From: Ulva prolifera
Taxonomy: Eukaryota > Chlorophyta > Ulvophyceae > Ulvales > Ulvaceae
NCBI GenBank assembly: GCA_023078555.1
Contig: CM041204.1
Coordinates: 4,494,430 to 4,558,429, forward strand
Direction: 5' to 3'
DNA: 64,000 nucleotides
This document shows, piece by piece, positions 14,213 through 61,251 of this stretch. Each line of letters opens with the position of its first letter. Position 1 is the first letter of the stretch. The translations under genes and the position numbers were made by a program. The notes beneath the pieces are model-generated. The model had not been told where the DNA came from and searched no databases. It saw nothing but the letters and a program-made list of their open reading frames with translations.

Positions 14213-16080
<1,868 letters not shown>

Positions 16081-17461: not shown

Positions 17462-20400
17462 TCATTCATCTGCATATGAACCCCATGGAAGCTGTAACGC
17501 TTTCCCGGCATTGGTGGCAGCGCCTGAAACGCTATCACGTCCCCTTCCAGAGCCGGTGGCCTGAAATGTCAAGATTCGATTCACCCGTGGTCTGTCTGGT
17601 GTTGTGGAGTGTTCCCGGTCGTCGCTCTCTGTCTCGTGGCTGCTGCTGTCCCATATACCCCGTGGAGAACGATCTGCTGATGCTGTAACCAGCTGTGTAT
17701 ATGCCCTCTTGTCCTGACTTGCCCTCCGTGGTGATGCAAAAGGAGAGACAGTAAGAACCCTGCTTTGCATTGCTTTGGCGAATCTGCATACAAATGCGAT
17801 GAGAGTGGCCAGGCACTTCTGGTGCCAAGTAGTATGGGAAGCGCATGTGCAGACTACTTCGGTGTGCTCATAATCAAGTAGCTTCGCTAAACAATCTCCA
17901 CACTGAGATGTTCTAGCAACATCATATTGGTGCATGCCCATCTGTCATGCCAATGCATGGCAGCATAGGTGATATGTGCTCAAGCTGATGTGATGCGGCT
18001 CTGTACATGGGTTTCATGAGTGCACTGCATATCCACATGGTTGTTTGATGAGAGGATTCAGATGAGCACCCTTGCCATGCCTCGAAAGTCACTTCAAGCA
18101 CACGTGTATCACGCCTCAGCAGCATGGCTTCTGCTGCCTGGTACAGGCGTGCTTGATGTGTCATTGCCAGCCGCCATCGGTTCCACATTTTCCCACATAG
18201 ACTCCGAGCATGTACCACCAGGAAGCTTGATGCGGCCGCCTGAAGTCAGTGTCCCACTTCGTTTGAACCCACATGACATTCGAAGAATCATTTGTGGGCT
18301 GACAAGTCGGAGTGAAAGCGGGACCTTGCAAACTAGCGGTGCACCGCGGGTGGGAGCTCCATTGCAATCGCCGCTGGCGTCAGCATATGCATATGCATCA
18401 GCAAGGCCACTTCTGCCACTGTGATTCCATGAGATGTTAGAGCGCAGTTTGCCAAGGGCATGCACACACCTGCAGCTGCATGATGAGTGCACGCTGTCCA
18501 GTGATGTGCTGCTGCCAGGCACGCAGTACTCGACGCCTGTGAACTCCATGCATGTGTGCAACAGTCACCTTGGTCATCTCGCGCATGTCTCTCTTCTGTT
18601 GACTGACTACGCTTTGCCACAATTGAAGAACCCTCCATGCAAGTCCTGTCCGCCAGAACTCGAATGCCATCATGTCCTGCCGCCTTGCGCTCTGCATTGC
18701 CCTCACACACATTTGCCAGCGGCCCCACACCTTGCGGACTGTCTGACGCTCCACTTTTGCCCACAGGGATCGAGCACGGCTCATGGTCCCCGTCCATGCA
18801 TGCCATGCCCGGAAGCACTTCCGGAAGACGCGCCTCCGCCGCTCCCGTGCAAGCTCGCTGCCAGCTGCAAGGGCACAGCGCACAGCGCGCTGCTTCCTCA
18901 GGAAAGCCTTTTGCTTGATCTGCGTGTCAGAGACGTGGCTGCGCCATGCACGGAAGCAGTACGCACGACGGGAGCCGCGCATTGCTTCGATGGCAAGATT
19001 GGCAACCTGCCTTGTGTGCAGTTTTTTGTCCACTCGGCTTTTCCACCCGTGTAATGCATTACCCTGCAGGTGCGCTTCTCAGTGGCATGAAATGCACAAA
19101 CTTGGATCAAGGTTGCCTGCGGGCCAGAGGTCAGTAGCTAGGAGCCAGCGCAGCAAACAACGGTGAACAGACACCAATGACGCTCTACTACACTGTTGTA
19201 CCCGTGTGCATGCAGCAGGCTCTGGGCAGGACATTGGCTTGCTGTTCAGCACGTGGTCCTGGTTGCTACGATACTCGTCACTGAATCCAGCCTGGCATCT
19301 AGTCGCCTTTGTACCCGTGTCGGTGTGTGGACATGGTGTATCCGATCAGGTGTGTCATGTTGGTCAAGTGGCAGCATAGCACCAAGTTTACTGAACACTC
19401 AGCAACTGCATGTGTCCAGAACTCACCATCAATCTTGTGCGGCAAAGCAAAGATGCCCGGAACAGTCCCTGCCATGTAGTCAGCAGAGCGTGGGCACTCG
19501 ATTGGGCTGAGGTGGCACACAGGGTGCTGCAAGCTGCTACATGTGAGCGCTGGTTGTTAGCCACCGCGCGCCAACTTGAAATCACGAAGCGCTGAAGTGT
19601 GGAGCCGCGCCGGCCGACAAAACGCTGCATGGCCCTGCTCATGCGTACCCTCCTCTACAACAGAATTACATGCTTGTCACTTGACATGATCTGTTCGCAT
19701 GTGCAGTGCTGCAGACCACATTCGAAGCATGAAAACACGAGCAGCAGCCAGGAGTGTATGTAGTCCAATGTGAGCACCGACCTCCAACATGAAGTGGACG
19801 GGCACAGAGCCGCACCCGCCATGTAGCCCAGGCACGACGTGAACAAGACAGACGGTTGTGTGAAAAGGCCTCGCGAAGCCGCGCCCGCTTTGCGGCTGCG
19901 CCCTGAGCATGTAAGCAGAACACTCGCCACGAACGCAAGAGTGTCCATCGTCGGTGCTGTTCACAGGCTGCAGCATCACGCGATCTGGCCGTCTCCATGC
20001 AGACCATACACCAGGCCCGCCAGGCCCGATGCATTCTTGACATCAAGCATCGCGCTGCGGCGCGTCGGTACTGGATGTGCTGCCACCATGTGCGAACTGC
20101 TGCCGAGAGCACCCTGCACAATGCATTATATCATGATAGCGCAGTATGTCATCTCGGCCTGCCCATCGCTCAGGCCAGCACCCAGCCTGATTGACTGTTC
20201 CAAAGGGCACCCAGATGACAGCTGCAATGTGAAGTGTGGCGGTCGGAGCTCTGATTGCCTTGCGTGACGACCGTTTCCAGCATGGTGGCTTGATCGTACG
20301 ACACGGGAGACGGAGGTGCGTTCACGTTGAATGGCATTCAGATATGGACTATCATGTGTGGCCACATACCTCCAAAGTGCGCTCTACCTCAACAGCACGC

Positions 20401-23400
20401 AACTCACCGCAGCATTAGGCAAGCTCACGGCGGCGCAGTTCCACCCACCCTCACGACATCACCGACACTAGCAGGTTGGCCCGGACATACCGCCACACGG
20501 CTTATGCTATAGAGCAGACTACCATACAAGGGTTGGTGACGTCAGGTAAGCACGCAAGGTGTGTTCCTGTAGCGCACCTAGACCTCCACTGGTGCACTGC
20601 CATGCGGGCAAGCTCCTCCTGCCTGGCCGCTGCTGACACAGCTGCCTGCCAGGCTTCCATACACCGTGCCAAGGTGCATGCCCTCCATCGTGCCACTGCT
20701 CGCAAAAGTGCCGCTTTGGCTGCCTGTCGCGCCTGCACCCTGTCCAGCCATGCTGAAAAAGCGCGTGCGGCATGCATACTGCCCCACCATGCAGCTGCTC
20801 GGGCAAGTCTCTCACGGCGGCCCCTCTTCGTGGCAGTGGCTTCCACCCATCTGGTGAACATCCTCCATGTGAAGCTCTGCTGCCAGTGCCTCACAGCCCT
20901 GAGAGCACACGCTCGCATGTGCTGGCAATCACGCACTGAGCCTGCCCAGCTCTTAAACGCTGCACTCAGCTGCAAACGTTTCCAGTGCCGGATAGCTCTC
21001 GCAGCCGCATGCCGCTTCTGTTCCCTCATGAACAAGAACTCAGCCCACGATGAGAATGCTGCGGCTACACAGCTGTTCCGCCAGAATGCCACAGCCCGCA
21101 GTGTGGCCGCACGGCTGCGCTGCCGCTTTGCAACGAAGGCAGCCCATGCCCGCCAGGCGGCGTGCATCTGCCTTGATCTCAAGGCGGCCAGAAGCGTCTG
21201 CGCTCTGTGGGAAATGGCATTCCTGCGGCCGACAGCGTGGCACCAAGCACGAAAGGCTTGCGCTGCAGTCCGGTGCATGATCTTCTGCAGGCAAGCACGT
21301 GCGAGCGCTCCAACATGCCGCTGCCGCTGCGCCGCAGTGCGCCATGCCCGCAATACCTGCATCAGCGGCCGCGTTCATCTCCGGCAGCGTCATGCCTGTG
21401 ATCAGTCCTACGTCGCATGACAGTATGTGCACGCTCTGGTCCGCTGGCGCAACAAGCGCTGCGACTACGACAGTCACAAGGCAATGCCAGCAATTCTCTG
21501 GAGACAGCACCGGCACTGCTCCTGGGTTCTTCGTGCGTTCATGGCATGACGAAAGGTGTGGGTGACGTCCCCATGGATGCTTTGCATGAGGACAGCGACA
21601 GTGAATAGTCTGGCACATTGAGCACGAGGCGAGCCCAGCCTAACGATCACTGGTGGACCACCACCGCCCATCGCCTCCTCTGCTTCACCGCACCACACAG
21701 CTCAAGCCCCTGAGGCTGTGCCGACATATGATGGATCGGCACGAGCCGCATTCGTATTAACAGGCGCGCACGATAGTCAGTATACACGATGGCGCGAGCA
21801 TGACCAACAGAGAAGTACGATCACATGTTCTGCTGTGGGTTCAAACAAAAACACTGGCAATGTACACATGCAAGGCCATGTCGGACCAGATGCTACAGTG
21901 TGCTTGCGACGGCGTCGGTTGAGTCGTTGTCGTGTAGTTAGCACATGAAAGCAGTCACTGAGCACATACCCCCGGGGCCGTGTGGGCATGGTAGAAAGCA
22001 ACGGCGGCAGCAGTGCAGCGGCGGACATGGCGGCGTGCCATGGTTCCGTCCGCCCATGCAAGGATTGCGCTGCGCGCCATGCGGCATGCGGCATGACTGC
22101 CGAGTTGCTTTGACACAACAGTGAGCTGGTGCTGCCGCTCTGCAACAGCGCGCCACCTTGAAAACGCAAGGTGCATGCATGCACGGGCTGAATGGGCGGC
22201 AGCAATGACGGTCATAGCCTTCGCCACTCTCTGTTCCCTTGCGCATGACCTCCACTTGCCGAATGCAGACCTGCAACGATGAAATCCAGTGGTGTACATA
22301 GGAAGATTATGTAAACACCATGACCAAACAGGGCAAGCCTCATGTGATCTTGGCACAGTATCCTTGCAGCCCATCGGACGTATGATACTGACACAGCGCC
22401 TCACTGAAATACAATCTTGAGCTGTACGGCTCGGGCAGAGAGGTTTTGGTACTGTGTATCAGCTCAGCCCATCCATTATGTGGAGATCGCACCGGAGACA
22501 TGAGGCCAGCCAGTGCCGTGCAGCCCGCACCGTGCGCAATCTCTCAAGGCGAACAACATGCACTGCACATCGCCACGCATCGAACGCAGCGGCTGTGACT
22601 CTGTGCTGCCAGCGTGTCACTACTGTCCGTTTCAGACGCCTCCAAGCAGCTGCAGCCACCCAGACCATCATGGCGCGGCGGCATAGGCCGCTGCAGCTGT
22701 GCATCACAGCAACTGTTGTCAGCCGACGGAACAGGTTCCGCTGGTGCACAGCGGCCACCCATGCTGTGAAAGCGGAGGAAACGTGAGGGCCAGCACGTAT
22801 CCTCCGCATGGCTCTAACACCGCACTTGGCCAACCTGCAGCCCCACTGCATTCAGTGGCTTTGGCAGACCTTCAGGACGCATGCCACTGATCGATGGGCA
22901 CGGCCCACCCACAGAATTGTGCACGGTGGGACCGGATTTCATGGCCCTGGGTGTCATCGCTTCACGTGTGATGGAGCAGATGTTGTGTGACAAAGACAAG
23001 AGTCGGGGAGGCAGGTAGCACCACAGAGCGGTCAGCTCAAGAATGGAAAAGAACAGGAAGGAGATGCTTTGTGACTTGGGTGCGTGTGCCTTCATGTGGC
23101 ACATAAGTGCAACAATACCAAAACATTTTGAGCTTAGGGCATGCAAGCGTGACAACGCACCGTGGTGTATGTGCCAGCCTGGCAGCCATGGCTTCGGAGG
23201 CAAGACGCTGACGAGCTTGCTCTGCTGCGTGAACTCGCCACCATGAAAAGCTGAGCTGCATGGTGCGTGAGAGGCTCCGTGCCAGGAGCGCCTGTGCTGC
23301 TGCAGCACGGAATGCCTTGATTGCCCACGCAGAAAAAGCTGTGGCCATCACCCTGAACAGCACCTGCAGACCAAACTGGTTTAGGTGCACGCCAGACACG

Positions 23401-26400
23401 TACATTCGGCCGCGCAGTTCCACATGCCGCCTGTCACGTCCCTGCCTGATGCACAATTGTGGTCATGTCGCATGGCGAGCGGTCAGAAGATCGCAGTCCC
23501 AGAAAAACAAACAATTCGGCATCATGTCACAACCAACGCAGTGCAGGTAGTGATTCTGCAGCCATGTCAACATCTGACACAAGGACCACGCTTGCGAAAG
23601 GACACCACGTGGCAGAGACACCATCCTGTTCTTGTCAGGTGCAATCCAAGTCAGGGCAATAGTAGTGCAAACTGCACGTGCACACTTGTGACCTATTCAT
23701 GCACTGATTTCGGGCAGCGTGGTCAAAGCTTGTACAACAGAAGGCCTCACCTTAGCAAGCAGCTCTCTGCATGCTCTCTGCTGAGCCGCCCATAGGGCCA
23801 GTGCGGCAAAGCAAACAGCCTCAGCTTCTAGTGCAAGACGCTTCATCACCCGGACATGCAGCCCCTCTGCGGCTATCAGGATGGCTCGTGCAGCCCGGGA
23901 CTGTGCAATCCAGGCATTCCATGCCATCCTTTGCCGGCGCCGCTGCATTGCTACGACTGTTTTTCGGAGGAGGCGCTGTTTCGCTGCGTTTGCACACAGA
24001 CACGCCATGGCCTCACGCATGAGCACCGTGGTGCGGTGGCACAATGCTGCATGAGATGCTGCGGACTCAGCCACAAACAGCAGCCATGTCTGCCATGCCC
24101 GCGCCAGCACACTCCAGCGGAGGCGCCCTACAGCTCTCTCACAAATCTGCCGTTTCCGCCTGCAACAGGCGACTAGTGAACCTTGTGAAGATCAGCCCAG
24201 ACACAATTCTGCACCACTTCGTGCCTACTGCACGTGCAGCTTTTCTGCAAGATGTACATTCGAGTCGATCATACATAGCAGGGCCACACCGGCGCCAACA
24301 GGAGTAGTGCACCCAGGATTTCCATGCTTTCCGTCGCTGTGCATGCCTGAAAGCACACGCCGCTGCTGTCTTCTTCTGACGTGATGCTCTGGCATGCTCC
24401 ACAGCCGTACACCAACTGATGAACGCTTGCGAGGCTGCCTGCGCCTTGAAGTGAGCCGCTGCCCTGGCCTTTTGCGCCCGCTTCTGCAATCCCGTGCTAT
24501 CTAGTCACCGATCGATTTGTTTTCAATCCATGACATGTTCATTGACACGGACGCGAGCAATAGCTCCATCATGCAGCCATGATTGCGAGAGGATTTCTCA
24601 ACTATCTCTAGAGATACAGGCCTACGCCCCAGCTTAGACTGCTACGGCGTGGCCAGCGCCGATTTCGACACAGGGCCTTAAGAGCGCTTCAGACTGTGCA
24701 CCAGAAGTCGCACTGCAGCACCGGCATGCCCAAGGCGCTGAAAGGATTAACGCTGCATCTACGTCGCCAGTGGGCCCAGATCTACCCTGTATGGTGTGCT
24801 TGCAAGGTCCAGGCACTGAACTGGCACTCATACCTCAGAGATACATGAATCGGACGATCATCGCACAAACCAGAACATTGACAATTCTCTGTGGGCGTCC
24901 CAGGTGTGAGCAGCGTGAATGGCTTGAAAACTCTCCAGCCAAAAGTGAGTGTAGCCGGATGAACGCACCTGCTGCCAAATGCAGGTCTGGAGCTGCCACT
25001 CTGACCAGATTGTACTCAGCTGCCGTCTTACTAGCTGGGCCACAAAGTACTGAGCGACGCGTTCTGCATTTGTACGGCGCTGAACATACACTTTCCATGC
25101 GATGAAGCTGCTCTGCATGTGGCTGTGTGCGAACATCGCAATGGCGGCTGAGAGGCGGTGCCGCTTGCGGAGCCATGCCCTTGTAGCTCGCTGCCAGCAG
25201 CTCATAGCTTCATGCACCAACCTGTATTGATCAACGCTGCTTTGTTGCCATGCGCAACAACTTAATCACTGTCACCGTGTTCATAGACTATATGTCCATG
25301 GGGCTTCGTGGGATCTAGGCACAACTGATTTTACTCCCTTCCAACCTGATCCTCTTCTCCTTGGGTAGTCAACAAAGCATTGCAACGAGGGTCTGTGCTC
25401 AGCAGGTGGATGCGCCAATAAGCCAGCAGCAGCATTATCACTTGCACTGGGGGCATACGTTGAGTCAAAGTGTGCCACTGCTGACTGCCAAGCCCGTCCT
25501 TCATCCAGTACGGTCCTCCACCGCCTCCATGCAGATGCAAGCAACCTGTGCCTGCATTGGTGTAGTGCCCAGCGAAGTTTTTGATGTATTTGCTGGTTTT
25601 CTATAAGGGCATGCCAGCCGGTCCACAGGTGGCGGTGCAAGATGCGTGAGAGGAGCAGCTTGGCAGCATGTGACCTCTCTTTTGCCACCTTAACTTGAAC
25701 TCGCCATGCACTCCATACTGATTGCATGCGATATTCAAGCCTGCACACGTTGATTGCATCACCCACGGCCCCCAATCCTGGCCAGCTCTCGGTTGCGTTT
25801 GCATAGCGCCGTGCTATCGAATTGCTGCAGTTCTAGACTTGGCTGTAGGCAGTGCACATCCTGAGGCAGGACTCATAAGACCTTGTAACGGTGAGAACTA
25901 CCCAATCTATGAAAGCTAACGCTGCCAAGAAAGTAGACAGTGCACGTTACAACTTGTTTGGGACACCTTTAAAACTTCCGCGACCCGCTCTAACAATTCT
26001 ATGCTTCGATCGCAGGGCGCAGCATGCATTGCAGTTATATAAGATACATACCAATGTGCATGTGCATCTTTGAGTGCAACGCAGACTTCAAACCAACCTC
26101 GGAGCGCCAGCTGTACAGTGTTTCCAGCCCAATGCGCGACTGCTGTTGACATTCGCTCCCGTTTCTCCAGTTTGCCTGCTGCATACTCTCTCCAGGCAAC
26201 CCAGACAGCTACCACTGTGCGGGCTCGCCAATGGTTGATAGCCATTTGTATCTTTGTCCTTGTAAATGCGGACCATGCTGCCACCGCCTGCCACTGCCTG
26301 AGAGCTGATCCAAGCAGCAGCTGCTGCCAGCGGGCAGCAGCTACATGCATGGCTTGCCTGAGCCTGCGGCGCCTCTTGGCAGCAGCCCGCCAACTGGAGA

Positions 26401-29400
26401 ATGCACGTGAAGTCTGTGCAGAGCTAAACCACTGCAAAGCCACCTGGACAAAGCGCTGCCACTGCGCATAACCCTGAAATGCACGCATCCCACATCGTAG
26501 GAGTCCATGTCGCGCCCGTGATGCAGCCCGCATGAGCTTTTGTGTTTTGTTCTGCCTGTGCCATGTGTACAGACGCCAAGCCTCCCACCGCCGTGTCAGG
26601 GCTGACACGCGCCAGAAGTTAAGAGCATGCTCAAGCTGACCACGCTTGAAGCTGCGCTGAAGCGCCCATTTGTGCCAGCAAGAAAACGCACTAGCAGTTG
26701 TGCGGTGCTGAAGCCGGCACAGAGCACGGCGTGCAGCAGCTAATGTCTCGGGCTTGGGGAAAGACGTGTCAACCCATGAGTTCCAGCATCTCCGCAAGCG
26801 CCTGCAAGTGCAACAGGCAATGTTTTGTCAGTGGGAAAGAACACTCAATGTCATCATTAATACCACTCTCATCAGCCCAATTCACAATAATTCTATCATC
26901 ATTTGCGCTGATTGATGCTTGCATGCACGCTGCCCGATGGCAAATTGCAATTCGCGCACACACATGCGTGGCAGCCACAAGAACATAAATCCTTATGGCA
27001 GCCACAGGAACATAAATACCGATCATGAATCATGGGAATTCAATTCAGGCCTGTTCTTATATGGAACTTCAGTACATGGCGTGAGAGCAGAAGAGCACCA
27101 CTGATGCATGATGATCGCCGCCACCATGGCCTTCTTGGAGATGCGCACAACGTCCCGCCAACACGCCCACGCTCTTGCAATACTATTGTGCCTCAAGCGC
27201 ACCAGTGCCGCAGACATGATGTCGCGATTGCGTGCTTTGAACTTTGCCCAATCCTTCCAGTGGATAAAGGCAGAAGCCTGCAAATCGTGCGCCACATCAC
27301 ATCTCCACCGCTCACACACTGTTGTAATCTAATTATATCTTTTGTCGGTGATGATCTGTGCTCACTGCTGAAGGGCATGCTGCTGTGACAATTGCTGCGT
27401 TCCTAGCAGAGTAATCAGCATGGCGATCGAGCCGGGGTCATTGACAGCAAATGATGTGAATCTCAACTCAAATATCAATCAGCAGGGGCATGTGCGGCAT
27501 ATGCCACTGATTTGAAGCAGTGTACTTGTGTAGTCAATGCTGCTAAGAATTTGAGGGGACCTGGCTGGACGCGCACATCTAAGCAACAGCACATGCACGC
27601 TCACAAATAAGGTCAATTTCAGACGGATCTCTGCCGCAAACATCACAAATGGATCACACCAGCTTTCCCGCCCTCCAGACACGCACAGCCTTGTCCATCG
27701 TCTCCTTTGCGTGCTTTGATTCTGCCATTGTGTCTGTCCATGTGTTCCATGCATGGGAAACATGCACATTGCAGATACGGGCAGCTGCAGCCTGCAGCAG
27801 GCCCCGCTTTCGCTGCCGCCAATGAACATACCCTTTCCACCCGCTCCATGCAGCTGCAATCTGCGCACGCTGCATCCGTGCAACAGCCTGTGCAAGCAGA
27901 GAGCGCTTATGCTTCCACTCTGCGGCACGCCATAGCCACGTTGCAAAGGCCTTTGCCTGCGTCAGCTCTGCCCACGCCACTGCCGCCCGCTGCAGCTTCT
28001 GCCGCTTCTCGCGAAGCATGCCAGCACGCTCCCACCACCCCAGGAACGCTGCTGCAAGCGTCCGAGACATCAACCTTTGCGCAAGGTCTCTGCATCTGTG
28101 CATAACGTGCACGCCTTCACGCCACCCATGCAGGGCTCCTGCCGCTGTGACACGTGTGTGGTGCGCTGCAGCAAGCCTTTCGTTTACCCCGTACTCTACT
28201 GCATCCTGCCACGTCTGCCAGGCTCTCCCGAGCGACCTCTTCATCAACCACTGAAGGGCGCGATGTGCGGTCCGTACATCATTGACATGGTCCACCCATT
28301 GATTCCATGCTGAAGCCACACTTTGGTGCCGCAGATGCGCGACCGCACGCGAAATGGCCTCACGCTTGGTGGCTTGGTGGCTGCAGTGGTCCGTCCATGA
28401 AGACCAAGCAGCTCCCAGCCTAAAGGCGCGAAACTTTGCGGCAGCTCGCTTCATAAGTGTAGCCTTCCGCTGCGCATGAGCACAGCAGTCCGCCCATGCA
28501 CCCCACACGGACGCCAGGAGTACGTTCCTCGAATGTTGCACAGCCCTGACCATGAGCGCCGCCTTTCGTTTCGCTTGGACACAGAATTCCAGCCACGTGA
28601 CAAAGGCAGCGGATACTTGACGCTGTCGCCAGTGCTGCTGGGCACTCTGCAAAATTGTTGACTTCTTTGCTTGCCAAGCTACATGGCCCCTCCATTGGTC
28701 CCACGCAGCGCCCAACAGTCTACACTGCCACCTTTCCACACAGGCCGTGATCAGGCGCCGCTTGCGTGCCCTCCACACGGCATAAGCAGTCCAGGCCTGC
28801 AGTGCCTGGCCAGCGCGATACCGCCTCATATGCGTGACTGTACGCTGTGCCAGATTGCGCTTGAACTGTCGGTGTTGCACAGCACATCGCCACGAGGCGA
28901 TTGCCTTTGCCAGTACACCCGCCTGCAGGTGCCCCACTGCGCGTTCCAGCAGCCGCCTGACATGTTTTGCCTCAGCTATCCAAGCCTGCCACCCACAGAA
29001 TGCAGCATATGCTCTACTCATTGCAATGCGCCGCGCCACTGCCGTGGCTGCGTTCCGAGCTGCCTGCAGCTTGACGCAGTGCTCAGCCCAGCCTCGGTAT
29101 GCCTGTGCCAGCGCTGCTTGATTCCATCGGGCAATGGCACGATGTAGCTTGGCTTCTCTGCTTGCTGCAGCGTGCCATGATGAAAATGCGGCAGCCAACC
29201 TTGAATGGATGATGCGCGTCAAGATAGCGTGAATCTGGTCCCTCCTGCACGTTGCAGCAGGTGTGTTCATAGCATTCCACCTCAGGATGTGAGCTACAAA
29301 TCCCAAATGTGCACATGCCTACACGGATGCCTGCTGTAGCAACACTGGCGTGGGCTGTATACTTTGTGCAGACAATTAAACTTCATGGACAAAATTCGCT

Positions 29401-32400
29401 GACCATGTCAAGATTGGAGGATGCAGGACAAGTGCTTCAAGCCATCTTGAATAAGTGGAAACTGTCACGAAGATGGGCACCAAAATCCTGTGGCACGATG
29501 GCCTGTTCATGATAGTGTACACTGGCAGGAGCACTTGAGAGGCGCTTGTACCTGTGCCGGGTCTTTTCGGATTCGGCCTTCCAATCAAGCAGGATCCGGT
29601 TGGCTAGTAACTCACGTGCAGCAGCATAGGCCCACTCTAGCTTCCATTGAGCTCTGAAGGCGTTAACCCAGCAAGACAGCATCGTTTGCTGCACACAATG
29701 TGTATGCATATGTCGGACGGCACCCTCCACAGCTACCAACCGCTGCCTTACCTTAATGGCCTGTACCCTGCAAGATGTTGGTTGTTCAACTGCCACTCAG
29801 CAGAAGGGAAACTCGCTGGTAGTCAAGTGTGAACTCGAGGCATCGAAGGTTTGCCTCAGAAGGACCAGTGCAAGGTTGGAGGCAGCTGGAAGGTAAAAGT
29901 TTTGGCCATCCAACCCTAGCATGTCTCCATATGCATGGGTTCTGAACAGACGGTATGAATGAAGATTGATTCTCTCACACTGTGTAATGGTGTCACAATG
30001 CACATGAAAAGTCACACCAAGTGGCGAAGGCCGATGCCATACTGGTGGTTTGAGCCATCCTCACCCACAGCTGCGCAGTCTGCCTGGCTGCCCAGAGCTT
30101 TGCAGTTCTATCATGCCAGGACGCAAATGCCCTAGCAAGCGTGCCGTGTCTCAGCCTTACAATCACCTGCGTGGCCTTAGCAGCAGTTGAACAAAATCAT
30201 GCAAGCCGTTGCGCACAAGGTCCACACACAATGATGCCATGTGTGAGTCAATGCCTGCTGTGGCAAGTGTCGAGCAGCATGAAACCAACATCTGTCAGAC
30301 AGCTTCAATGACAGCACAGCCATGCGTGTAGCTAGGAAGTCGTACGTGCTGACACCGCGCTTGGACTGTTGCTTTATCAAGGGCATACTGCAACCATATG
30401 TTGAATGCCCGGCGGGTAGTATGACGCCTGATCCTGGCTACAACAAGAGCCAAACCCTCGTTCAGATGCAGACTTCTTGCAGTCCATTGACGCCATGTCT
30501 GGAATGCCAAACTCCTAGTATTCCGCGTCCAGAACGCGATGGCAACCTGCAATCAGTGTCGGCCGTTGATGCAGGCGGCTACAGCCGAGACGACTACGCA
30601 GGCACATCGAGCGGAACATCCACATGCTGGAAGCTCCAGAACGCAACTTGCAAGATACGTCATGCATGTGCTACCCTCTACAGGTCTAGACTTGCACAGA
30701 GACCAACTAACAAACAAAAAACCCCTCAGAAAGCACAAACATGCTTCCCTGGTCTCGCTGTTCCGCACATGCAAGCCAGCTGGGCTTAACGCTATCGCAC
30801 ACCTGCATGCGTTCCTCCTTCCTCGCAACAGTCTGCACCCTGGTACGCCAACTTTCCATTGCTACCATCAAAGCTCTCCTGCGCCACCTAGCGAGAGCAC
30901 GGTGCATCCTTGACCGCATCCACAGTGCTGCCTGTGTGCCTGCCTGCCACAGCATCAGAGTCTCCGTTGCACGCCGGCGGTGACAGAGCTTGTGGAGAGC
31001 TACCTCTGCCACACCATGGAGCGCAGTGCTGGCCGCCATGGACCTCCAGAATTGTAGACCCCGCCTCTTTGCGCCCCGCGCTGCATGTCCTGATGCAGCA
31101 GCATCTGCTACTCTCATGCGCGAAGCGGCAGCACGTAGTATTGCAAAACAACGGCGCAGAGCACTGCGCTTCAGGTGCAGGCCTGCAAGAGCCATTTGCT
31201 TTGCCACGCGGGACGCCTCCCGCCACAATGCAAGGCTACAGAGCAGCTTTGTAGAGTTACGGTGAGCCACAGCAGACCGGTGTTGTCGCTTCTGGTGCTC
31301 AATGGCCCCCCGCCAGTGCCAGAAGCTAGAGCGGGTTGCAGACTGTGCCCAGAGCGTTGTTGCGCGGGACAGCTGCACTGGAGCGAGGCCGCGCCAGCGC
31401 TGTAGCAAGCGAGTGATGAGGTTGACTTCCCAGAAAGCCACAGCGGTGGACCATTGAGCAATGGCTGCATCACGGGCAGGGCGGCTCATTCGGAGGACCT
31501 GGCTGTGGTGCTGCCAGTATCGAAAGTCTGCAAGTCGATCCACAATAATTTGGAGAATAATATCATGCAGACAGGACAACAGGCACAGTCTGGTGCGCAC
31601 GGCAGGACAAAATGCTGTGAGTCTTAAATGCTGCCATGTCTTCATCAGGCAGTGGAACTGCATTTGCCATGATGCTCGAGTTCTCGTCTTCGTTGAAGAT
31701 TTTAGGGGGCCTTTCAGGTAGAGATGGCTGTCGATGTGCATGTGCATCCATATGTGATGCCATGCGCTGCCCACTGACAGGCCAGCGCATTGGTGGCGCA
31801 GGAACGAGTTCAGCTGTTCGGCTGCGATCCACACGCGCTTCAGTGCGTGCTGGCACAGGAGTCGCCGTACGATCTGGAAACGGTATTGGGAGATGATTGG
31901 TTTGCACACAATATGCTGGTGTGACTTGCTGCCGTGGGGTGCATCCCAAGGGCCCTGTAACAGACTTATCGGATTTGTGCACTCCGTGACAGTCAGGCAG
32001 GTGAGGATGAGATCCAAGCGGCGAATATGGACTTGTCGAACGATTGCAACACACTGCTGGGGACTGCTCATGCACTGGCAGATGCTGGCGCTGCTCCAAC
32101 ACACTGGAGATAGGAGAAGATCTGCCCAAGCTCTGAAGCTGCTCTGCCTGCAAACGCCCAGGTCGAAGTCTTGCCAGTGGGACACTTCAGGCCCAGAACT
32201 GTGCTTTCGTGGCCGTGACTGTCGACAGTATCGCACTTGCAGCTTCTCCCACCAATTCGGGTATGGTTCTAAGCACAATTTCAGCAAGAAACGGTAATAG
32301 CGTGTGTCTTCTTCAGGAACCATTCCTTTGCTACGTAGGACCAAATCATAAGCTTGTAGCAGGTGTTTCAGGGACGGATTAGCTGGACCAGCATGCACTT

Positions 32401-32440
32401 CCCTTGCTCTGCCTTCTGCACGCGCGAGAATCGCAGCCAT
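17462..32440 (-). CDS. Giant Sfi1-like centrin-binding repeat protein
   Basis: Sfi1 proteins form long helices that bind one centrin per repeat and build centrosomes, basal bodies and related fibres. About 20 minus-strand exons were recognised: 32440-30803, 30546-30356, 30166-30065, 29767-29552, 29244-27660, then segments near 27320-27127, 26809-26050, 25740-25300, 25220-24900, 24490-24180, 24110-23770, 23400-23190, 22830-22480, 22290-21990, 21356-20502, 20121-19780, 19640-19440, 19033-18450, 18200-18060 and 17770-17462. Nearly all encode repeats of about 33 residues with cores such as LGAAWSSWTDH or AFSSWRAA (A-x-x-x-W or W-x-x-W). I count about 80; yeast and human Sfi1 have roughly 20. The start (ATG at 32440) precedes a non-repeat domain with PEEDTRYYRFLLKL, and the last exon is Ser/Arg-rich and non-repetitive. 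Total length is roughly 3,000 residues. The exons after 27660 have approximate edges. The first exon is open throughout, but in-frame introns within it cannot be excluded. Two neighbouring genes instead of one are possible, though no internal start or end is evident. Confidence 0.85.
20502..21356 (-). repeat. Sfi1 repeat block in one exon, about 9 repeats
   Basis: A single exon, with acceptor at 21356 after tgatgcag, encodes consecutive repeats with cores FRAWCHAV, WRAWAAFV, FSSWAEFL, FKSWAGSV, FTRWVEAT, FSAWLDRV and MEAWQAAV spaced about 32-33 residues apart. This regular spacing is the best local proof of the Sfi1 family. Confidence 0.85.
22975..23025 (-). mobile_element. Relic of LINE tail in an SFI1-like intron
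   Basis: On the minus strand the sequence contains GGTGCTACCTGCC, then a degenerate middle, then tttgtcacac, the subfamily A tail with several changes. Only the last 40-50 bp survive. It lies against TGTG, as the other tails do. Confidence 0.5.
27660..29244 (-). repeat. Sfi1 repeat block in one exon, about 16 repeats
   Basis: A 1.6-kb exon (acceptor after aacgtgcag, donor GTGTGA) encodes about 16 consecutive repeats. Examples of cores are FSSWHAAA, YRGWAEHC, IASWRCAV, WDQWRGHV, FVTWLEFC, WGAWADCC, WSSWTDHC, WNQWVDHV and WSGWKGYV. Neighbouring repeats resemble one another closely, suggesting growth by internal tandem duplication. Confidence 0.9.
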
Positions 32441-33365: not shown

Positions 33366-34311
33366 ATGGCCGGGCTAGCCAGTATGATCTCGAGATCTGA
33401 GCTTGATCAACTCAAAGCCTATGTGACAGCTCCGGGGAAGCTTGGAGCGAATCAGGCCGATAGCACCGTCCTGCTCCACGTCACTCACTCCAATCTTCGG
33501 GCCGAGTTCATGGAACTTCGGTTTGACAAGCATGTACGGATCCCTCGGAAAGCACTTGGCTGCTACAGAGAGTTGCTTCTTCTCTCGGCGCATGTGGCAG
33601 CATTCAATCATCACTTCCTTTGCCCTGTAGGCCACGGTTGACTCGATAAAGAGCAAGCTGGTATCACATGTCGGCACATCGCCATCGGCCATGGAGCTTG
33701 AGTTGAAGGACTCACAAGGCAGGCTTCTTGCGAGTCTGTCAGATCTAACGAAGAAGCTTGGATACTATTCCCCCCAAGATGGCTTCATACTGCATGTTCA
33801 CGATGTTGATCCTACCTCTGTGACCGCAGACGGTTGGCTGGAAGATGTTTCGAAGGTAGAAAAGTACGTAATGTCAGATGCCGATTATGCCATGAGAGAT
33901 AACACATATCGCAAATATAAGGAGTCCAAATTGGCGGAGGACGCAGAGTGGACTATCGAGAAAGAAATGGCTCGAAGAGCAGGCAACGAGGCACCAGCTG
34001 CTCAGCAGAAGGTGACAGACCCCGAGTACCAGGCTACGGAGGCAGGTCTAATAACAGTAGGATGCAGGTGTCAAGTGAAACTAGGTGCACGGCGGGGAAC
34101 TGTGCGATTTGTTGGTAAGGTCCAAGAGCTTGCGCTGGGATACTGGGTCGGGATTGAGTACGATGAGCCTGCAGGAAAGCATGACGGGACTGTGAAAGGC
34201 ACTAGATACTTCCAGTGTCCGTCGAATCACGGAGTGTTTCATCGGCCAGATAAAATTGACCTAGGAGACTACCCTGAGATTGATTTCCTTGGTTCAGATG
34301 ATGAGCTGTAA
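33366..34311 (+). CDS. TBCB: Tubulin-folding cofactor B
   Basis: Cofactor B captures newly folded alpha-tubulin from the chaperonin and, with cofactor E, takes part in tubulin dimer assembly and recycling in the cytosol. Two exons, 33366-33533 and 33631-34311 (donor GTACGG, acceptor ccctgtag), join in phase 0 to give 282 residues, a usual length for the family. The N-terminal ubiquitin-like domain covers about residues 20-105 (DSTVLLHVTHSN, then KLGYYSPQDGFILHV). A helical linker follows (DADYAMRDNTYRKYKESK), then the CAP-Gly domain at about 200-265 with GYWVGIEYDEPAGKHDG and the loop FQCPSNHGVF. The acidic C-terminus ends in DDEL, comparable to the acidic end that binds CAP-Gly domains in animal homologues. 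The gene is divergent from the SFI1-like gene and 523 bp ahead of a WD40 gene on the same strand. Confidence 0.95.

Positions 34312-58700: not shown

Positions 58701-61251
<2,551 letters not shown>

Follow-up and report, generated by a model that had tools for sequence, protein, structure and literature searches.

A large intron-rich gene of Ulva prolifera with tandem Sfi1-type repeats, a candidate centrin scaffold of the flagellar apparatus

The window analysed here, 64,000 nucleotides of contig CM041204.1 of the green alga Ulva prolifera, carries an intron-rich gene on the minus strand (31.5 to 18.1 kb), with tandem 29- or 33-residue repeats featuring a core of the Sfi1 centrin-binding type. 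The repeats are present far above chance. Well-supported units number 62–65, and the figure of about 80 given in a preliminary description of this DNA is attained only by counting weak units. The array probably constitutes one large gene, which would encode a giant Sfi1-like scaffold for centrin in a basal-body-associated fibre. The product is a candidate backbone of the fibres that link algal flagella to the nucleus. As an observation the preliminary description was largely right and is confirmed in part; its interpretation, as a whole, is partly supported.

Two sets of splice models were scored with generic, hand-chosen weights, not trained on U. prolifera. They differ at both gene ends and in several borders of the core exons (starts at 29244/29293, 27277/27328, 26739/26801 and 23363/23441 in the first and second model, respectively). 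The modelled protein measures 2,612–2,782 residues over the splice models, 2,729 in the middle one. The GC content is 59% in core exons and 52% in introns. At 0.057 bits per codon in the core, the codon preference is too weak to decide the terminal exons. The span of 15 kb previously assigned to the gene is plausible, an ATG being present at 32440, and is ambiguous at the 3' end, where stops from 17980 to 16541 (17462, 17535 and 16879 among them) differ by few bits only in the second model. The exons are:

32237..32440 (-), candidate first coding exon, MAAILARAEG...YYRFLLKLCLEPYPNWWEKLQ, 68 residues without repeats; tentative
31563..32147 (-), candidate N-terminal low-complexity exon (AEQLQSLGRSSPISS...), hand-placed, open frame with in-phase TTTGCAG acceptor; tentative
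30803..31510 (-), first repeats of the array, first W codon at 31396; every setting of both splice models, and repeat scores
30346..30546 (-), repeats 30495 and 30396; both splice models, spacing of 33 over intron 30802-30547
30069..30175 (-), repeat 30118; second splice model (the first ends the exon at 30018), 36-residue spacing over the intron
29481..29767 (-), sole weak repeat 29583 (4.5 bits); second splice model, borders vary with setting and in the first model
27660..29293 (-), largest exon, 16 repeats in 29/33-residue register; second splice model and matrix (first model starts at 29244)
27099..27328 (-), repeats 27259 and 27160; second splice model (first starts at 27277)
26052..26801 (-), 8 sites, the first (26776, 8.4 bits) crossing the splice junction; second splice model (first starts at 26739)
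25459..25740 (-), repeats 25706 and 25520; both splice models
24969..25221 (-), repeats 25196, 25097 and 24998; both splice models, 29-residue spacing over the intron
24290..24483 (-), repeats 24414 and 24315; both splice models, 33-residue spacing over a 485-bp intron
23751..24159 (-), repeats 24086 and 23912 plus two weak sites; both splice models
23161..23441 (-), repeat 23240 plus weak site 23327; second splice model (first starts at 23363)
22493..22813 (-), repeats 22662 and 22575 plus weak site 22761; second splice model, 5' border varies with setting
21970..22270 (-), repeats 22254 and 22155; both splice models, 33-residue spacing over the intron
20578..21356 (-), 8 repeats, seven at exact 33-residue steps; both splice models
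19816..20113 (-), repeats 20088, 20013 and 19929 plus weaker 19821; both splice models, 33-residue spacing over the intron
19427..19654 (-), repeat 19573; both splice models, 29-residue spacing over the intron; divided into two exons when the second model is run with its lowest intron penalty
18470..19006 (-), repeats 18946, 18718, 18655 and 18517 plus weaker ones; both splice models
18070..18239 (-), last clear repeat of the array (18176); second splice model (first ends at 18104)
17462..17944 (-), open frame taken as the C terminus in the preliminary description; codon score gives no support

The first of these exons was hand-placed and chosen by neither splice model. Its ATG directly follows a CAG acceptor-like site, and a donor-like GTGCGA marks its end. 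It matched itself and one other genomic site at E 0.29, and nothing in Pfam or PDB; its synonymous codon score (-0.185 vs +0.057 in the core) speaks against coding. The score is slightly against both hand-placed N-terminal exons, and in 31563..32147 the adjacent frame is likewise open and scores slightly better (0.024 vs -0.013). Outside the gene the window has thirteen long open frames (at least 230 residues); Pfam scans of nine of them gave nothing at E 0.01 or below.

A matrix built from 16 repeats of one exon (27654-29318, minus strand) retrieved, between 17 and 33 kb of the same strand, 34 matches above 8 bits on which it had not been trained, some overlapping; the rest of the six frames gave 1 match, the reversed window none. 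A matrix made exclusively from 24 repeats of a paralogue on C6 found 41 non-overlapping sites above 10 bits in the same interval and strand (39 Trp-centred), and 1 elsewhere. These two scans are free of the partial circularity of counts made on the spliced middle model, where the matrix had been derived from sites of the window and splicing was modelled with a preference for repeats. In that model 65 sites exceed 15 bits, 62 with Trp at the centre, against a mean of 1.03 (maximum 3) in 30 residue shuffles and 4 in the reversed protein; 59 sites exceed 20 bits, against 0.10 in shuffles and none in the reversed protein. First to last repeat, the array measures 2,583 residues, or about 2,600 rather than the 3,000 residues of repeats announced earlier. 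There is space for about 78–82 units, and 80 repeats is therefore an upper bound.

A single predicted transcript is supported. Of 18 repeat-flanked introns, 10 fall inside a repeat and 8 keep exact 29- or 33-residue spacing, tying 31510-30069, 27328-23751 and 22813-19427 into blocks. A rather unlikely alternative is a set of two or three neighbouring Sfi1-like genes on the same strand, split for example near 29.4, 23.0 or 19.2 kb. It is favoured by the remaining 8 introns, which lie outside repeats and of which one only keeps the 29/33 spacing, and by in-frame Met codons near the starts of the exons at 29293, 22813 and 19006, each placed after one of these introns. Five of the eight exons that follow such introns have no Met near the start, however, and gaps at the candidate breaks (187, 347 and 420 bp) are short for gene borders, the largest gap in the array being 613 bp. 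The preliminary description was to be abandoned should fewer than about 40 repeats be found; a single gene stays above that number, but were all three breaks real, no part would hold 40 repeats.

The periodicity is that of Sfi1-repeat proteins, for which a period of about 33 residues is expected. In the spliced middle model, 77 sites score above 2 bits, and the steps between them are of 33 residues in 37 cases and of 29 residues in 14. The Trp-centred hydrophobic core of the repeats also has the orientation of Sfi1. The minimal motif [FLW]xxW[KR], applied to PfSlp (PMC10180636), occurs 29 times, against a mean of 4.96 and a maximum of 12 in 1,000 shuffles. A relaxed hydrophobic triad occurs 37 times, against 10.5 by shuffle (maximum 21 in 1,000). 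The motif published for single Sfi1 repeats, Ax7LLx3F/Lx2WK/R, is degenerate in its strict form: among 67 repeats, A is found at -16 in 45, L at -8 in 11 and at -7 in 21 (a hydrophobic residue at -7 in 40), F or L at -3 in 37 (F, L or W in 59), K or R at +1 in 29. AlphaFold2, run without alignment on one exon, drew five helices over 501 of 528 residues at low confidence (mean pLDDT 50.6).

The repeat core may also be viewed as a generic amphipathic helix with a Trp, whose partner would be calmodulin or a different EF-hand protein instead of centrin. EF-hand matches are numerous in the genome, and one of them, at C1:5376386, is recognisable as calmodulin. ASPM, a protein with many IQ motifs, would be the analogue of such a system. 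Against this, a single IQ-type (calmodulin) motif was found in the 2,729 residues, not the many of ASPM-type proteins, and published Sfi1 repeats have both the order L-xxx-F/W-xx-W and the 33-residue period seen here; binding of calmodulin in place of centrin thus appears improbable.

Decay into a non-functional array, which the weak codon preference and some degenerate repeats might suggest, is very improbable given that long exons are open unaided (1,634 bp at 29293-27660, 779 bp at 21356-20578, 750 bp at 26801-26052). The lack of stops in the spliced chain carries no weight here, because the splice model forbids them. The repeats are only about 20% identical to one another, and with exons this long still open, Trp, Ala and hydrophobic positions have therefore been kept over a long divergence.

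Two further loci with such repeats reside elsewhere in the genome. The C6 paralogue, modelled at 3,154,608-3,160,013 on the minus strand, comes to 1,268 residues, in which 31 repeats score more than 8 bits. The same 33-residue repeat was detected in both directions between this paralogue and the window gene (best tblastn E 9.9e-8, 30% identity, from window gene to paralogue). Its 28 Trp repeats, with L at -7 in 18, F/L at -3 in 25 and K/R at +1 in 18, are nearer the published motif than those of the window gene, except for A at -16 (9 of 28). The window-trained matrix scored 27 sites above 10 bits in locus L014, 7 in L016 and none in nine other loci.

Of four C6 pieces, one had Pfam Sfi1 as its top family, with a sub-threshold match of 178 residues (18.5 bits, E 0.00079); the N-terminal 843 residues of the C6 splice model matched this family at E 0.0015. 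The family matched no piece of the window protein, nor the other three C6 pieces or the C5 piece, chains being scanned in pieces. Since neither the window pieces nor the C6 paralogue (best 18.5 bits) reach the curated cut-off of PF08457 (22 bits), the gene is filed as Sfi1-like by repeat, and not as a PF08457 member or Sfi1 orthologue. A search of the whole genome with PF08457, exon by exon, gave no match, and is uninformative because it was empty in 14 control genomes as well. Profile searches of the PDB with three-repeat and single-repeat alignments returned no Sfi1 chain (three lysozymes and one viral nucleocapsid, E 0.09 or weaker), and a repeat exon alone had no PDB match. A DUF3717 hit (E 0.00095, 19.4 bits, cut-off 25), limited to 17 residues in a single exon, was discounted; other Pfam matches of single exons are weak and were taken as chance. 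The Sfi1-type identity proposed earlier is thus sustained by the period, the hydrophobic triad and, indirectly, the sub-threshold C6 piece, but not by any Pfam Sfi1 match of the window gene itself.

A canonical centrin resides at C2:9622478-9623008. It is identical to a Chlamydomonas centrin at 81% of 95, 96% of 26 and 71% of 24 residues. In an alignment of 16 EF-hand loci, two were recognisable as centrin-like genes. The genome also has matches to SAS-6, IFT57, SF-assemblin and two radial-spoke loci. For IFT57 the alga's three best matches are above the cut-off, sub-cut-off matches occurring also in 3 of 14 control genomes. Together with centrin, these matches indicate that the genome keeps motile-flagellum genes, and the possible absence of a flagellated stage, raised earlier, is not borne out at gene level.

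In the favoured reading, that of a centrin scaffold, each repeat would form a stretch of alpha-helix, its Trp and the residues at -3 and -7 sitting in the pocket of the centrin C-lobe, so that a single chain would align some 60 centrins along a helix 200–390 nm long. The length of more than 200 nm predicted earlier is reasonable, 2,583 residues as a single helix measuring about 390 nm; the yeast Sfi1 filament reportedly measures 60 nm. Bundled side by side, such chains could build one of the centrin fibres in the flagellar apparatus, be it the rhizoplast, the nucleus-basal-body connector or a fibre between basal bodies; this fibre could shorten on calcium rise and would hold the basal bodies at the nucleus. 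Other centrin structures may be served by the two shorter loci with Sfi1 repeats. It is possible, and is proposed tentatively, that one polypeptide with about 65 sites is the backbone of the rhizoplast or nucleus-basal-body connector, spanning it from end to end as a molecular ruler of 200–390 nm, giant Sfi1 scaffolds having evolved independently of those in ciliates.

Centrin was first discovered in the contractile flagellar roots of a green alga (PMC8622359). No algal Sfi1 protein is named as scaffold of these fibres in the literature examined, and no giant Sfi1 of a green alga was found among the titles and abstract openings listed for green-algal Sfi1. According to a review, Sfi1 could not be recognised in many species, and the time of origin of the Sfi1-centrin complex is uncertain (PMC6070874). 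Homology searches can miss such proteins because the repeats keep little but Trp, Ala and the hydrophobic register. A photosynthetic alga with three Sfi1-type repeat loci, one at three times the repeats of yeast, offers concrete scaffold candidates and makes the question testable.

The window protein has in common with yeast Sfi1 and human SFI1 the 33-residue period and the Trp-centred L8xxxL4xxW1 triad; a helical array is predicted at low confidence. It differs in having 62–65 repeats, against a published 21 in yeast and about 25 in human, and no match to Pfam Sfi1 or to an Sfi1 chain in PDB. This is about three times the yeast and two and a half times the human number, rather than the fourfold excess first stated.

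Paramecium PtCenBP1, said to have some 89 repeats, and giant protist centrin/spasmin scaffolds are likewise large chains of Sfi1-type centrin sites. Their filaments are proposed to shorten with calcium (PMC6189993, PMC12661445). They serve contractile lattices or myonemes, and hundreds of sites have been described in protist myoneme and ciliate scaffolds (PMC12661445), against 62–65 here; the size of the U. prolifera array is notable, yet has precedent there. Paramecium has dozens of lattice centrins (PMC5483020), in contrast to the two centrin-like genes found here among 16 EF-hand loci. Toxoplasma TgSFI1 and Plasmodium PfSlp are, as the window protein, large, divergent, and recognised via repeated Trp motifs rather than by overall homology (PMC9406199, PMC4348508, PMC10180636). 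TgSFI1 has 31–32 sites in 3,903 residues and a long disordered C terminus, whereas in the U. prolifera protein 62–65 sites occupy most of the chain.

The longest open frame in the gene region, at 27654-29318 on the minus strand, is marked by cores of the AFxxW type, mostly in steps of 29–33 residues, and its commonest Trp-Trp distance is 33. A first matrix of 29 positions, built from 16 repeats of this frame, identified above 8 bits 34 additional matches (overlaps included) in the 17-33 kb region of the minus strand, against 1 in the remaining six-frame window and 0 in the reversed window. The iterated matrix, trained on the same sites that it counts, places 59 non-overlapping sites above 10 bits in the gene region and 1 outside it in the window; above 4 bits the figures are 70 and 16. 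As an independent test, a matrix was derived solely from 24 repeats of the paralogue on contig C6. It finds 41 window-gene sites above 10 bits, 39 of them Trp-centred, against 1 elsewhere in the window, and 59 against 23 above 4 bits. The window corresponds to G000:C9:4494430-4558429. The genome searched measures 88.9 Mb in 44 contigs, and the chlorophyll a/b-binding family gave 38 matches in it, which marks the source as a photosynthetic alga; the resemblance of its centrin to that of Chlamydomonas makes a green alga probable. Sfi1-like repeats reside in two other loci:

G000:C6:3154608-3160013, minus strand, Sfi1-like gene L014, 1,268-residue model with 31 repeats above 8 bits
G000:C5:1246141-1248827 (extent of the sites), plus strand, more divergent Sfi1-like locus L016, model with 9 repeats over 8 bits and 14 over 4 bits

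Searching with a C6 stretch gave no additional strong locus among the best candidates scored (next best E 0.66). Pfam Sfi1 is the top family for one of the four C6 pieces scanned (198 residues; E 0.00079, 18.5 bits, below the cut-off of 22), and the spliced C6 stretch of 843 residues matches it at E 0.0015. No Pfam Sfi1 match was obtained in the window-gene pieces scanned or in the C5 piece; the window gene is thus tied to Sfi1 by its repeat architecture and through the C6 paralogue.

PMC8622359 gives the centrin-binding triad as W1xxL4xxxL8, which may run in either direction; its least conserved position is 8. For Toxoplasma Sfi1, PMC9406199 reports Trp in all repeats, with F, L, W, V or I tolerated at both remaining positions. 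In 67 window-gene sites, picked because they centre on Trp and score more than 4 bits, position -3 is F, L or W in 59 (F or L in 37), -7 is hydrophobic in 40 (L in 21), -8 is L in 11, -16 is A in 45, and +1 is K or R in 29. The minimal motif [FLW]xxW[KR] occurs 29 times in the middle model (the spliced protein of 2,729 residues) versus 4.96 expected, the triad 37 times versus 10.5, and the protein has one IQ-type match. Judged by these tallies, the window gene carries Sfi1 repeats in degenerate form. L014 repeats are nearer the canonical motif, A at -16 excepted. The GC-rich segment 7656-10501 carries long open frames in several frames of both strands, and one minus-strand frame contains six AFxxW-like matches. 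A Pfam scan of three of the seven long frames gave no match.

The exon model combined log-odds of codons with generic weights for donors and acceptors, and it rewarded repeats that fit entirely into one exon; spacing between repeats did not enter it. Exons 31510 to 18070 are identical at intron penalties 10 and 13, and nearly so at 7; most core exons agree with an earlier version of the model, several borders differ. Introns measure 130-613 bp, and core acceptors are TGCAG in 9 of 18, a sequence favoured by the weights used. In the middle model, exact 29- or 33-residue spacing is kept across 8 of the 18 repeat-flanked introns. Drawing frame-preserving GT-AG pairs at random around the modelled sites would keep the modelled length in 1.29 of 19; given two accepted spacings, chance would yield two to three. 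Ten of the 18 sit inside a junction-spanning repeat. The register and the junction-spanning repeats hold together each of the blocks 31510-30069, 27328-23751 and 22813-19427. GC content is 59% in core exons and 52% in introns. The joins from block to block rest on short gaps, 187-420 bp where breaks might fall, and on missing Met: of the 8 exons preceded by an intron outside repeats, 5 have no in-frame Met near the start. A split into separate genes near 29.4, 23.0 or 19.2 kb is considered less probable than one gene.

Taken as one gene, the middle model holds 65 sites above 15 bits (Trp at the centre in 62), whereas 30 residue shuffles average 1.03 and never exceed 3, and the reversed protein has 4. 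Above 20 bits there are 59, against a shuffle mean of 0.10 and 0 in the reversed protein. Above 4 bits 73 sites compare with a shuffle mean of 25; since shuffles match so often at low thresholds, 73–77 is unfit as a repeat count. The preliminary description had proposed about 80 repeats; the 2,583 residues from first to last site have space for about 80 units of 29–33, which makes that figure an upper bound. Its minimum of 40 is exceeded provided that the array is a single gene. With one cut at 23.0 kb, 44 of the 65 strong sites would lie upstream of it; with one at 29.4 kb, 56 would lie downstream. Several breaks combined would leave every part below 40.

An adjoining gene on the opposite strand (33631-34311, plus) encodes ubiquitin-like and CAP-Gly domains, the domain composition of tubulin-folding cofactor B. 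Long TG dinucleotide tracts lie at 14801-14933 and 58705-58832. Locus L037 (G000:C2:9532079-9532231, minus) weakly resembles residues 5-56 of the candidate N-terminal exon (E 0.29, 37%), through either a shared motif or chance.

A canonical centrin is encoded at C2:9622478-9623008 (81% identical over 95 residues, 96% over 26 and 71% over 24 to the Chlamydomonas protein). L021 (G000:C2:2009082-2009496, minus), a divergent centrin-like EF-hand gene 32-43% identical in pieces to the same Chlamydomonas centrin, might be a partner of one Sfi1-like paralogue. The gene at C1:5376386 is presumably calmodulin. The EF-hand survey gave at least 19 matches, and 16 of their loci were aligned. What use this alga would have for a flagellar-root protein, a question raised earlier, is answered at gene level by the flagellar representatives searched: SAS-6 for the basal body (E 6.8e-24), IFT57 for flagellar transport (E 2.3e-21), SF-assemblin for the flagellar root (E 1.2e-22), and two radial-spoke loci for the motile axoneme (best E 1.6e-38).

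The chain is predicted, at low confidence, to be helical, and centrin may sit on every repeat; a single chain would then measure 200-390 nm. The larger figure multiplies 2,583 residues by the alpha-helix rise of 0.15 nm per residue. The ends of yeast Sfi1 lie 120 nm apart according to PMC10180636; scaling from 120 nm for 21 repeats gives about 370 nm for 65. According to PMC6070942, centrin fibres of Chlamydomonas run from every basal body to the nucleus and also join the basal bodies to one another, and Sfi1 fibres decorated with centrin are thought to coil up and become shorter when calcium is present. A chain of 200-390 nm would suit such a basal body-nucleus or inter-basal-body fibre.

No described counterpart in this lineage was found in the literature listings, as far as these were covered. 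Giant Sfi1-type chains are reported from protist myonemes, with hundreds of sites (PMC12661445), and as PtCenBP1 from the infraciliary lattice of Paramecium (PMC6189993). Toxoplasma Sfi1 carries 31-32 sites along its 3,903 residues (PMC9406199, PMC4348508), whereas the window-gene model has 65 in 2,729. Given these precedents the window gene is very large but of a known type, a very large addition to the giant Sfi1-type chains already described.
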